Source: Thioalkalivibrio sp. (GTDB lineage: Bacteria > Pseudomonadota > Gammaproteobacteria > Ectothiorhodospirales > Ectothiorhodospiraceae). Taken from it: a DNA stretch of 40,756 nt. Positions 23,140 to 27,573 of this stretch are shown here, in pieces. The notes under the pieces are model-generated. The model had not been told where the DNA came from. It did not search any database and saw nothing but the letters and a program-made list of their open reading frames with translations. Position 1 is the stretch's first letter. The number at the start of each line of letters is the position of its first letter. The stretch is from positions 1 to 40,756 of the forward strand of contig SKJG01000075.1 in NCBI GenBank assembly GCA_007116035.1, given 5' to 3'. The position numbers and the translations under genes were made by a program.

Positions 23140-23517
23140 ATGGCCAGCCAGGTACGTCCGGTCTTCCTTGATTTGACCAAGATCAGTCTTCCCATCAATG
23201 CCCTGGTCTCGATCCTCCACCGTATCACCGGGGTTCTGCTCATTCTCTCCATCCCAATGGTTTTATGGCTCTTCGGTCGTTCGCTCGCGGATCCCGGGGG
23301 ATTCGCGCAGGCCGTGGATGTGCTTCGACACCCGCTGGGACTGATGGTCCTTCTCGCCTGGCTGTGGCTCCTGATGCATCATTTCTTCGTCGGAATCCGG
23401 TTTCTGCTGGTGGAGATCGGCATCGGCGAGACGCGTGAGGGCGGGCGCCAGACGGCCTGGTCTGCGTTGATCGCCGGGGTGGTCGCCGCGGTCCTGCTCT
23501 GGGTATTGTTCCTATGA
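23140..23517 (+). CDS. sdhC: Succinate dehydrogenase cytochrome b556 subunit
   Basis: A 125-residue inner-membrane protein with three helices that anchors SdhAB and helps bind haem b and quinone. RPVFLDLTKISLPINALVSI and LHRITGVLL are conserved N-terminal features; His in HHFFVGIRFL is the probable haem ligand. GAGGAG precedes the ATG. It is first in the operon and its stop overlaps sdhD by four bases. Confidence 0.94.
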   Translation: MASQVRPVFLDLTKISLPINALVSILHRITGVLLILSIPMVLWLFGRSLADPGGFAQAVDVLRHPLGLMVLLAWLWLLMHHFFVGIRFLLVEIGIGETREGGRQTAWSALIAGVVAAVLLWVLFL

Positions 23518-23852
23518 GCCTCCTGAGCGGGCAGCGCGCCTGGCTGCTGCAGCGGGTTACCGCCATCTATGCCGGTCTCTACGTCTTCCTTGCGATTGCG
23601 GTGCTACTGGCGCGGCCACCAGTGGATCACGGTGCCTGGGTTGCCCTGATCACGCATCCGGTGGTCTGGCTGGCCACCGTGGCATTCATCCTTCTAATGC
23701 TGCTGCACGCCTGGATCGGGCTGCGCGACGTGATCCTCGATTACGTTCGACCCGTGTCCGTGCGGCTGACGGCCTTGGTGGTCGTGGCAGTGGTATTTCT
23801 GCTGCTCGGCTTCTGGGCACTGTGGATCCTGATCGAGGCGGCACTGACATGA
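23514..23852 (+). CDS. sdhD: Succinate dehydrogenase membrane anchor subunit
   Basis: A 112-residue protein with three membrane helices. LQRVTAIYAGLYVF and LLHAWIGLRDVILDYV are family signatures, the His probably being the second haem ligand and the Asp-Tyr pair lining the quinone site. It overlaps sdhC (ATGA) and sdhA (ATGA), so the three are translationally coupled. Confidence 0.94.
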   Translation: MSLLSGQRAWLLQRVTAIYAGLYVFLAIAVLLARPPVDHGAWVALITHPVVWLATVAFILLMLLHAWIGLRDVILDYVRPVSVRLTALVVVAVVFLLLGFWALWILIEAALT

Positions 23853-25612
23853 AGCTCACCACGCGGAAGTTCGATGCCCTGATCATCGGGGCCGGAGGCG
23901 CCGGACTGCGCGCCGCACTGCAGTTGTCCAATGGCGACGCCCGTGTCGCGGTGGTGTCCAAAGTGTTTCCAACGCGCTCGCACACCGTGGCCGCGCAGGG
24001 CGGTGTGAATGCCGCGCTGGCCAACGTGCTGCCGGACTCCTGGCACTGGCACATGTTCGACACGATCAAGGGCTCCGATTATCTTGGCGACCAGGATGCG
24101 ATCGAGTACATGTGCCGGGCGGCCCCCAAGGTCGTCTACGAACTGGAACACTTCGGGGTACCGTTCTCACGGTTGGACGATGGCGGTATCTACCAGCGTG
24201 CTTTCGGTGGGCAGAGTCAGAATTTCGGCAAGGAGCAAGCGGCACGAACCTGTGCCGCGGCCGACCGCACCGGTCATGCGATCCTGCACTCGTTGTACCA
24301 GCAGAACCTTCGCGCCCGGACGCACTTCTTCGACGAGTACTTCGCGATCGACCTCATCAAGGACGAAGCAGGGTACGTGCTGGGCGTGGTGGCCTTCGAG
24401 ATTCTGAGCGGCGAGCCGATCGTGATCGAGGCCAAGACCACGCTGATCGCCACCGGCGGCGCGGGGCAGATCTTCCGCACCAATACCAACTCCCTGAGCA
24501 ACACCGGCGATGGCATGGCCATGGCACTGCGCGCGGGTGTGCCGCTGGAAGACATGGAATTCGTGCAGTTTCACCCGACCGGGATCGCCGGTCGCGGGAT
24601 GCTGATCACCGAGGGCGTGCGCGGCGAAGGCGGTTTCCTGATCAACAGTGAAGATGAGCGGTTCATGGAGCGTTACGCGCCGCAGGCAAAAGACCTGGCG
24701 TCCCGCGACGTGGTCAGCCGTGCGATCGCGATCGAGGTGCGCGAGGGTCGGGGCTGCGGCAGGAACAAGGATCACGTCCTCCTGGATATGCGCCACCTCG
24801 GCGCCGATATGATCATGAAGAAACTCCCGGGCATCCGCGAGATGAGCATGACCTTTCTCGGCGTCGATCCCATCGAGAAACCCATTCCCGTCTTTCCGAC
24901 CTGTCACTACAGCATGGGCGGCATCCCCACCAACCGCGATGGCCAGGTGGTGGTTCCGGTCAAGGACACCCCGGAGGACCCGGTGCCGGGGCTCTATGCC
25001 GCGGGCGAGGCAGCCTGCGTCTCGGTGCACGGCGCGAATCGGCTGGGAGGCAATTCCCTGCTCGACATCCTGGTGTTCGGCCGTGCGGCAGCCAACCACA
25101 TCCTCGAATTCCTGAAGGACAACCGCTATCACCGTCCACTGCCCCAGGGCTCGGTGGACCAGGCCCTGGAACGCCTTTCGCGCTGGGAGCGCAAAGGCGA
25201 CGGCGAGGCGGTCGAGCCCCTGCGGCAGGAGTTGCGCAAGGTCATGGAGGATCACTGCGGTGTATTCCGCACCGCCGAGGTGATGCAGGAGGGTGTAGAC
25301 AAGCTGCGTGTTCTTCGCGAGCGGATCGCGAACGCAGTGATCCGGGACCACAGTCAGACCTTCAATACCGCCCGAATCGAGGCAATGGAACTCGAAAACC
25401 TGATGGACTGCGCGATGGCCACGATGTGCTCGGCGCTGGGCCGGGAAGAGAGTCGTGGCGCACACAGCCGGGTCGACTTTCCCGAGCGTGACGACGAGCG
25501 CTGGCTGAAGCATTCGCTCTATTCGCTGCTCGACGATTCGATGGACTACAAGCCGGTGCGCACCCAGCCGGTGTCGGTCGAATCCTTCCCGCCGAAGAAG
25601 CGGGTTTATTGA
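23849..25612 (+). CDS. sdhA: Succinate dehydrogenase flavoprotein subunit
   Basis: A 587-residue catalytic subunit that oxidises succinate to fumarate and feeds electrons to SdhB. It has the Rossmann motif IIGAGGAGLRAAL, the covalent FAD histidine in RSHTVAAQGG, the substrate-binding VQFHPTGIAG and HGANRLGGNSLLD, and the C-terminal NLMDCAMATM region. Length is usual. Start by ATGA overlap with sdhD. Covalent FAD attachment by SdhE, encoded downstream, is expected. Confidence 0.97.
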   Translation: MKLTTRKFDALIIGAGGAGLRAALQLSNGDARVAVVSKVFPTRSHTVAAQGGVNAALANVLPDSWHWHMFDTIKGSDYLGDQDAIEYMCRAAPKVVYELEHFGVPFSRLDDGGIYQRAFGGQSQNFGKEQAARTCAAADRTGHAILHSLYQQNLRARTHFFDEYFAIDLIKDEAGYVLGVVAFEILSGEPIVIEAKTTLIATGGAGQIFRTNTNSLSNTGDGMAMALRAGVPLEDMEFVQFHPTGIAGRGMLITEGVRGEGGFLINSEDERFMERYAPQAKDLASRDVVSRAIAIEVREGRGCGRNKDHVLLDMRHLGADMIMKKLPGIREMSMTFLGVDPIEKPIPVFPTCHYSMGGIPTNRDGQVVVPVKDTPEDPVPGLYAAGEAACVSVHGANRLGGNSLLDILVFGRAAANHILEFLKDNRYHRPLPQGSVDQALERLSRWERKGDGEAVEPLRQELRKVMEDHCGVFRTAEVMQEGVDKLRVLRERIANAVIRDHSQTFNTARIEAMELENLMDCAMATMCSALGREESRGAHSRVDFPERDDERWLKHSLYSLLDDSMDYKPVRTQPVSVESFPPKKRVY

Positions 25613-25687
25613 CGACTGCTCGCTCGGCGCTTGCAGTTGGTCGCTCTGTAGTTGGTCATTGGTCGCGCGAACCCAGGAGGCTTGCGG

Positions 25688-26389
25688 ATGGAATTTTCGA
25701 TCTACCGGTTCAATCCCGACACCGACAGCGCACCCTACATGCAGTCGTTCACGCTGCCGGACGACCAGATCGAACCCGGCATGATGCTGCTGGACGCCCT
25801 GCTGCTGCTGAAGACGAAGGATGACAGCCTCGGCTTTCGGCGCTCGTGTCAGCACGGTGTCTGTGGCAGCGACGGGATGAACGTCAACGGTACCAATGGG
25901 CTCGCCTGCATCATGCCGCTGGCGAATCTGAAGGCGCCGGTGGTGCTGCGACCGTTCCCGGGCATGCCGGTGATCCGTGACCTGATCGTGGACATGGATA
26001 ACTTCTACCGCCAGTACCGTGAGGCCGAGCCCTGGCTGATCAACGACTCGCCCGAGCCCGAAGTCGAGCGACTTCAGACCCCGGAGGACCGCGACCGCCT
26101 CGACGGGTTGTACGAGTGCATCCTCTGCGGCTGCTGCTCGGCGTCCTGTCCCTCCTATTGGTGGAACCCGGACCGCTTCCTGGGACCCGCGGCACTGCTG
26201 CAGGCCGCGCGCTTCATCGAGGACAGCCGCGACCAGGCCACAGAGCACCGGCTTGAGCGGCTCGACGACGCCTACCGCCTCTATCGCTGTCACGGCATCA
26301 TGAACTGCACCCAGGTCTGTCCGAAGGGTTTGAATCCCTCGAAGGCGATCAGCGACATTCGCCGGACCATGATCAAGCGCTCGGTGTGA
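25688..26389 (+). CDS. sdhB: Succinate dehydrogenase iron-sulphur subunit
   Basis: A 233-residue electron-transfer subunit. The 2Fe-2S site is SCQHGVCGSDG...LACI (Cys54, Cys59, Asp62, Cys74), and the C-terminal domain has CILCGCCSASCP and CHGIMNCTQVCPKG for the 4Fe-4S and 3Fe-4S clusters. AGGAGG stands eight bases before the ATG at 25688. The 75-base gap after sdhA contains short GTTGGTC repeats and no gene. Confidence 0.97.
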   Translation: MEFSIYRFNPDTDSAPYMQSFTLPDDQIEPGMMLLDALLLLKTKDDSLGFRRSCQHGVCGSDGMNVNGTNGLACIMPLANLKAPVVLRPFPGMPVIRDLIVDMDNFYRQYREAEPWLINDSPEPEVERLQTPEDRDRLDGLYECILCGCCSASCPSYWWNPDRFLGPAALLQAARFIEDSRDQATEHRLERLDDAYRLYRCHGIMNCTQVCPKGLNPSKAISDIRRTMIKRSV

Positions 26390-26417: not shown

Positions 26418-26675
26418 ATGGTGATGCCGGACACCCGCACGCGCTGGCGTTGTCGCCGGGGTATGTTGGAGAATGACCTGCTGCTGGGTCGCTTTCTCGA
26501 TCATGGATATGACAGGCTTGACCAGGAGGGTCGCGATGCCTTCGAACGCTTGCTGGGCTACCCCGACAATCTGTTGCTGGACCTGGTGCTGGGGCGCCAG
26601 GCGACGGTGGATTCGGGCATAGCTCGCCTTGTCCCGCTCATCCGCGCCGCCACTGCGGATCGCCCTGAGCCATGA
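26418..26675 (+). CDS. sdhE: FAD assembly factor SdhE
   Basis: An 85-residue small helical protein that promotes covalent FAD attachment to SdhA. The signature RRGMLENDLLLGRFLD carries the RGxxE motif that contacts SdhA. GGGGAAGG lies five bases before the ATG. Its 3' end overlaps the next gene, the YgfX-NifU frame, by 47 bases; SdhE (CptB) and YgfX (CptA) form a pair in E. coli. Confidence 0.93.
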   Translation: MVMPDTRTRWRCRRGMLENDLLLGRFLDHGYDRLDQEGRDAFERLLGYPDNLLLDLVLGRQATVDSGIARLVPLIRAATADRPEP

Positions 26676-27573
26676 CCCTTTCCTGCCGCCGCTGGCGGCG
26701 CTGGGGCTGTTCGCAGTGGCGGCCGGCACGGTGCTCTACGCACTGGCTTACAGCGGCTGGATCGCCGCGCTGCTGACGCTGGTCCTTTCCGTTCTGGCCG
26801 TGGGCTGGTCCGTGCGTTTGCGTGGGCCCGACTGGGACTGGCTGGGCTGCGACGCCGAGGGGCAGTGGTGGCTGGCCACGCGAGAGGGGCTGCGCCACGA
26901 ACAGCGGACCGTCATCCGCGTATCGGGAGACAGCCGCGTCGGCGCCCGCATGGTCGTGCTGGTCTGCGGCGTCGCCGATACGGGAGCAGTCCAGGTGCTG
27001 TGGTTGCCCTGGTGGCGGCTGGACCCGGAGGACTTTCGACGCCTGCGGGTGCGCCTGCGCTGGCCGCCGGAGGCAGAGGACAAACCCAGCCTGATGGCGC
27101 GGCTTCAGGAGGGCATGCAGCGGGCCGTTGGTATACTCAAGGGCCTGACCAAGCGCGGAGCGCAGCCCATGAACACGCCCCGGGACATGGCCGCGGTCGA
27201 TCACCTGCTCAGTGACGACCCGGAACACGTCTACACCGAGGATGAACTGGACGCGATCGAGGCCGTCGACCCCGAGCTGGCCCTGCGCCTCGACCGCGCA
27301 CAGACCTTCGCGCAGCGCCAGGCCCACGATGAGCCCGCCGAGGGTCCGATCGACGAGGCGGCGGTGCGTCAGGCAGTCGAGGAGGCGCGCCGGATCCTGA
27401 TGCAGGACGGCGGTGACATCGAATACATGGGTCTCGATGGCCGTACGGTGCAGGTGCGTCTGAAGGGAGCCTGCGTGGGCTGCCCTCGCTCGACGCTCGA
27501 CCTGAAGAACGTCGTCGAACGTCTGGTGCGTGCGCGGGCCCCTGGCGTGGAGCGGGTCGCGAACACCTTCTGA
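26629..27573 (+). CDS. YgfX-NifU fusion: membrane protein joined to Fe-S carrier domain
   Basis: One frame of 314 codons. Residues 1-150 match YgfX: a PPLRIAL start, two membrane helices (about 18-62) and a cytosolic beta-rich part ending in LPWWRLDPEDFRRLRVRLRW. Residues 181-314 are an acidic linker and a NifU-like C-terminal domain with MQDGGDIEYMGLDG and the cluster-binding CVGC (Cys282, Cys285). The start is TTG 26629, overlapping sdhE. An internal ATG (27169) with GGAGCG and a TATACT box at 27132 could also give a free NifU-like protein of 134 residues. There is no stop between the parts, so YgfX translation must run on. Domain calls are firm; the biological fusion is inferred. Confidence 0.8.
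   Translation: MSRSSAPPLRIALSHDPFLPPLAALGLFAVAAGTVLYALAYSGWIAALLTLVLSVLAVGWSVRLRGPDWDWLGCDAEGQWWLATREGLRHEQRTVIRVSGDSRVGARMVVLVCGVADTGAVQVLWLPWWRLDPEDFRRLRVRLRWPPEAEDKPSLMARLQEGMQRAVGILKGLTKRGAQPMNTPRDMAAVDHLLSDDPEHVYTEDELDAIEAVDPELALRLDRAQTFAQRQAHDEPAEGPIDEAAVRQAVEEARRILMQDGGDIEYMGLDGRTVQVRLKGACVGCPRSTLDLKNVVERLVRARAPGVERVANTF

Follow-up and report, generated by a model that had tools for sequence, protein, structure and literature searches.

A probable stop-loss fusion of ygfX and nfu, with an internal start for a second product, at the end of the Thioalkalivibrio sdhCDAB-sdhE operon

The gene that closes the sdhCDAB-sdhE operon of Thioalkalivibrio sp. in the window analyzed here, the whole stretch of 40,756 nucleotides of contig SKJG01000075.1, is most probably a fusion of the adjacent genes ygfX and nfu that arose through loss of a stop codon and that now encodes two products (Table 1). 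The gene lies directly 3' of sdhCDAB-sdhE, its start overlaps the 3' end of sdhE by 47 bases, and no other gene of its genome encodes a NifU domain. Translation, Pfam matches and conservation within the genus bear out the first-pass annotation, which had described a stop-free frame joining YgfX to a NifU-type domain with CVGC beside sdhE. All the parts belong to known families, but neither a YgfX-Nfu pairing nor a fusion of the two with a retained internal promoter was found in the literature searched, in which we found no mention of YgfX together with NifU. The locus illustrates how neighboring genes can fuse by a single stop loss while the downstream promoter is retained, so that promoter DNA becomes a protein linker, and it touches on two unsettled matters, namely the role of YgfX and the route by which Fe-S clusters reach bacterial membrane-bound respiratory enzymes.

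Table 1. Features of the sdh operon and of the fused ygfX-nfu gene, in window coordinates.
Feature	Position	Strand	Details
sdhCDAB, succinate dehydrogenase subunits, operon start	23140..26389	+	Pfam Sdh_cyt, Fer2_3 and Fer4 on sdhC, sdhD and sdhB
sdhA frame	23822-25612		within sdhCDAB
sdhE, FAD assembly factor of SdhA	26418..26675	+	PF03937, 2.4e-21
Fused ygfX-nfu frame	26629..27573	+	TTG start, 314 aa, without internal stop
YgfX (CptA-type) domain, residues 25-146	26701..27066	+	PF07254; two predicted membrane helices, then beta-rich part
Linker	27067..27168	+	stop-free in 31 sequences; low synonymous, near-neutral amino-acid change
CTTC, nearly invariant in the genus	27103..27106	+	~41 bases before inferred nfu transcription start
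Candidate extended -10 promoter element TGGTATACT of nfu, inside frame	27129..27137	+	
GGAG, putative ribosome-binding site	27157..27160	+	8 bases before internal ATG
Internally started nfu, 134 aa predicted soluble Nfu	27169..27573	+	ATG in 27/28 genomes
NifU/Nfu cluster-carrier domain, residues 246-310	27364..27558	+	PF01106, E 4.4e-20
CVGC cluster-binding motif, residues 282-285	27472..27483	+	both Cys invariant, 13/13 alignment rows

The match of the Pfam family Cpta_toxin/YgfX (PF07254) to the window protein (E 1e-4, 22.6 bits) falls below the curated cut-off of 27.3 bits. The same family matches 28 of the 37 members of the fused-family alignment (best E 5e-13), with 27-41 bits in relatives of the fused family and 32-41 bits in members of the related genus g3 (T. 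sulfidiphilus/T. denitrificans group), and an AlphaFold2 model places two membrane helices near the N-terminus (residues 19-41 and 44-63), with strands after them. The YgfX assignment is accepted on the basis of the matches in family members, the g3 scores, the adjacency to and overlap with sdhE, and the modeled helices and strands. Like the YgfX/CptA proteins that accompany SdhE/YgfY in E. coli, Serratia and Shewanella, this half is a small two-helix membrane protein encoded after, and overlapping, sdhE; unlike them, it carries a C-terminal Nfu extension. Accounts of a YgfX-SdhE partnership conflict: YgfX is a multimeric membrane protein binding SdhE according to the title of McNeil 2013, as cited in PMC8621075, and other groups have failed to find the interaction, as in Shewanella (PMC8621075).

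For the C-terminal half, the PF01106 score of 72 bits lies well above the curated cut-off of 27, and both sequence and fold match solved Nfu structures (human NFU1 2m5o, S. epidermidis 1xhj and Arabidopsis CnfU 2z51). The CxxC ligands C282 and C285 are invariant in the alignments. Taken with PF01106, this motif identifies a putative Nfu-type Fe-S carrier for which cluster binding and transfer are predicted, Nfu proteins being [4Fe-4S] carriers (PMC8593673). Two more specific identities were rejected: NfuA, whose model TIGR03341 scores 13.5 bits against a cut-off of 269, and NifU proper, which combines an IscU-like N-domain, a ferredoxin-like middle part and Nfu and whose model TIGR02000 scores 42.5 bits against 273 in an alignment limited to the Nfu part. 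The NfuA proteins of E. coli, P. aeruginosa and A. vinelandii also bear an extra domain before a C-terminal Nfu, but this front domain is a degenerate A-type domain in NfuA (PMC8593673) and a YgfX membrane domain in the Thioalkalivibrio fusion. The standalone Nfu proteins (S. epidermidis and S. aureus Nfu, the C-terminal domain of human NFU1 and plant CnfU) share the CxxC Nfu domain, and translation from the internal ATG would yield a free carrier like them; the Thioalkalivibrio gene differs in sitting within a ygfX fusion and in having an N-terminal segment of its own. This conserved segment ahead of the Nfu domain, HVYSEEELDAIE..D.ELALRLDRAQ (window 27220-27310), lacks a Pfam match and defines a rare Nfu subfamily, which a survey of 369 genomes from across the class recovered in 20.

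A search for the YgfX-NifU architecture, as the first-pass annotation had proposed, recovered it well beyond the window. The same open frame is present in 28 of 30 genomes of the genus, at 56-94% identity (the two genomes without a match are 66% and 80% complete), with TTG as the start codon in 28/28 sequences, and also in three of the five g3 genomes. Throughout the fused sequences the length of the linker is a multiple of three. A stop hidden by sequencing error, which the same annotation had named as a possible objection, is excluded by the unbroken, stop-free fusion in 28 Thioalkalivibrio genomes, and its other concern, that relatives might all carry two separate genes, applies to more distant relatives only. 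Trees of SdhB, PGM and Nfu do not separate one shared fusion from two fusions, one in the Thioalkalivibrio group and one in g3; in the PGM tree, g3 clusters with unfused lineages (support 85/94).

The more distant relatives point to the origin of the fusion. Three other families carry ygfX and nfu next to each other as separate genes, and two of these families show the unfused order sdhCDAB-sdhE-ygfX-nfu (L131, L132 and L090, and the Acidihalobacter-type loci L133, L135 and L137). A TATAAT box lies between the two genes in L090, L131 and L132, 32-35 bases before the nfu ATG, and in L090 both genes share one frame, with a single in-frame TAA between them. Loss of the stop from a layout of the L090/L131/L132 type would yield exactly the fused gene. 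The subfamily nfu also occurs as a standalone gene (L096-L101 and L033), and the internal ATG of the fused gene lines up with the ATG at which such standalone genes begin. The linker of the fused genes is the counterpart of the putative nfu promoter and leader that lie between the genes in L090, L131 and L132. The ygfX and nfu genes of Ectothiorhodospira overlap, and the pair faces the sdhE end of the sdh operon. Across L093, L095 and L146-L150, the Ectothiorhodospira pair is convergent with sdhCDAB-sdhE and does not follow it, and four relatives of that genus have lost nfu.

The best-supported part of the first-pass annotation is its internal ATG with a TATACT box, both of which are present and conserved at the nucleotide level, as is a GGAG ribosome site that it had not reported. 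The candidate element TGGTATACT fits the sigma-70 extended -10 form, TGN followed by a TATAAT-like hexamer (TATACT, 27132-27137), and is conserved as nucleotides in 26 of 28 genus sequences and in all three fused g3 sequences. Transcription would be predicted to begin some 7 bases beyond the hexamer, near 27144. The string TGNTATACT occurs once in the 40.7 kb window (0.06 expected), and in the fused genes it keeps a fixed spacing to GGAG and to ATG181: wherever a fused sequence retains TATACT, the hexamer ends exactly 31 bases before the ATG (29 bases in the unfused G033). Codon choice tells the same story: ATA serves at 26/26 Ile codons of residue 169 (2/207 elsewhere in these frames), GCT at 22/23 codons of residue 168 (43/976), GTT at 22/22 of residue 167 (51/884) and GGA at 27/27 Gly codons of residue 177 (54/606), counts for which Fisher p-values overstate significance because the sequences are related. 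An unbiased scan for unusual codon choice over the whole frame ranks codons 167, 168, 169 and 177 highest once the sdhE overlap is set aside; this overlap is bound to be constrained and therefore serves as a positive control. Another outlier lies further upstream, where CTT is used at 26/26 Leu codons at 27103 (42/1007 elsewhere), and the CTTC there may be a regulator site. The reading of TATACT as a promoter box is backed by its conservation and extended -10 form but not by a consensus -35, which was not found in the region searched and which an extended -10 may not need; nor was a terminator found there. An alternative internal start at M187 was rejected, this residue being Leu in L006 and L011 and lacking a ribosome site.

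From these elements we infer that both products are made. The sdh operon transcript would give an anchored protein of 314 aa in which two membrane helices are followed by the cytoplasmic domain of YgfX, a linker of 30 residues and Nfu, and the TGGTATACT promoter, with GGAG and the internal ATG, would give a soluble Nfu of 134 aa. The anchored form would place a [4Fe-4S] carrier next to SdhE and SDH. The Nfu cluster sits between two subunits, and the anchored Nfu could therefore associate either with soluble Nfu or with a second YgfX-Nfu. Defects of human NFU1 affect complexes I, II and III (PMC4238403), so that supply of clusters to SdhB would be plausible. Internal starts that generate N-terminal proteoforms are known in bacterial genes (PMC11005335), and the present gene resembles them in having one frame, two in-frame starts and a C-terminal domain that is also made alone. 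It differs from them in that an ancestral promoter forms part of the internal unit and in that its origin from two neighbors can be traced.

Whether the fused product matters is a separate question. Ribosomes that translate ygfX must run into nfu, so that any translation of ygfX inevitably yields the fused product, but it is a distinct possibility, though less likely than not, that soluble Nfu is the sole functional Nfu product, the ygfX stop having been lost by accident and the tail being tolerated or degraded within a fused frame that has no role. In several pairs the linker has a dN/dS close to 1 or higher and thus gives no sign of protein-level selection on the peptide; it is as DNA that the linker appears to be selected, which favors this reading. 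Against this stands the open frame itself. Among the 31 sequences no stop occurs in the coding frame of the linker, whereas nine and four sequences have stops in the other two forward frames, and when the linker was simulated forward on its own tree, with no selection against stops, 1% of runs ended with none of the 28 tips carrying a stop (6% when the tree was halved in length). There is, then, moderate support for an open frame kept beyond chance in the 28/28 genus sequences, and the three g3 genomes share it, even though one base change could restore a stop and leave the box unharmed.

Lineages that have lost the internal unit bear on the same question from both sides. In the complete genome G012 (L013; 3,756,729 bases), which we take to be probably T. 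paradoxus, the box, GGAG and ATG are all gone, and apparently no Nfu other than the fused form is left. The fused frame and CVGC are kept there, which speaks against a soluble product as the only one with a function. At the same time, constraint on Nfu falls once the internal start is lost: G012 shows 10 private changes, including K279Q and F314G, at Nfu positions invariant in the other 27 genomes, as against two at most in any other, and in pairwise comparisons the NifU domain has a dN/dS of 0.35 between G010 and G012, as against 0.00-0.09 in the other pairs. In the g3 genomes G066 and G067, box and Nfu have been lost together, YgfX is kept and no NifU domain is found in either genome, a pattern that also favors the soluble product. 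The YgfX frames of both (L155 1568-2284 in G067; L157 in G066) close with what is left of a decayed nfu start, GQERLEALPGETRR. What becomes of the Nfu half thus tracks what becomes of the internal unit, which suggests that most of the function lies with the soluble product, and most selection on Nfu probably acts through it. Living relatives display the stages unfused, fused, internal start lost and Nfu lost.

Within the two-product reading, we put forward only tentatively, as a proposal with the odds against it, that YgfX-Nfu as a fused protein works as a membrane-tethered Fe-S donor and that it and SdhE jointly make up a site at which succinate dehydrogenase is assembled, balanced by soluble Nfu from the buried promoter. 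The conserved YgfX-Nfu pairing beside sdhE, fused in one lineage, suggests that YgfX is tied to Fe-S or SDH assembly and not to a toxin.

In a stronger version, function would reside mainly in the fused protein, which would link the delivery of clusters to SdhB to the SdhE-dependent flavinylation of SdhA. This version seems to us decidedly unlikely. It draws on the retention of the order sdhCDAB-sdhE-ygfX-nfu in two to three families, on the survival of the ygfX-nfu pair even in Ectothiorhodospira, on human NFU1, whose deficiency affects complex II among others (PMC4238403), and on G012, with its apparent reliance on the fused form. The relaxed constraint on Nfu where only the fused form remains argues the other way, as do the several relatives that have SdhE and YgfX without Nfu and the conflicting reports on YgfX and SdhE noted above. 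Finally, that two separate genes were misjoined by sequencing or assembly error is hardly conceivable, for although the window genome is a fragmented draft of 186 contigs and L090 has a stop at the equivalent place, the same open frame is carried by isolates and by the complete, single-contig genomes G010 and G012.

Some 3-5 kb downstream of the fused gene, g3 has a set of genes that reads as iscR-iscS-iscU in translation, and this fits an Fe-S context. At L160 2506-4814 (G034), the iscR-iscS-iscU-like set is a few kb 3' of the fused gene and a second IscU copy is located elsewhere in the genome. A canonical IscU match was not found in the clade of the window (G000, G010 and G012) and is present in G029 and g3. 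The only NifU_N match of the window's clade is a SufU-like protein encoded beside a SufS-like desulfurase (L164 2150-3966, minus strand, contig C97 of the window genome).
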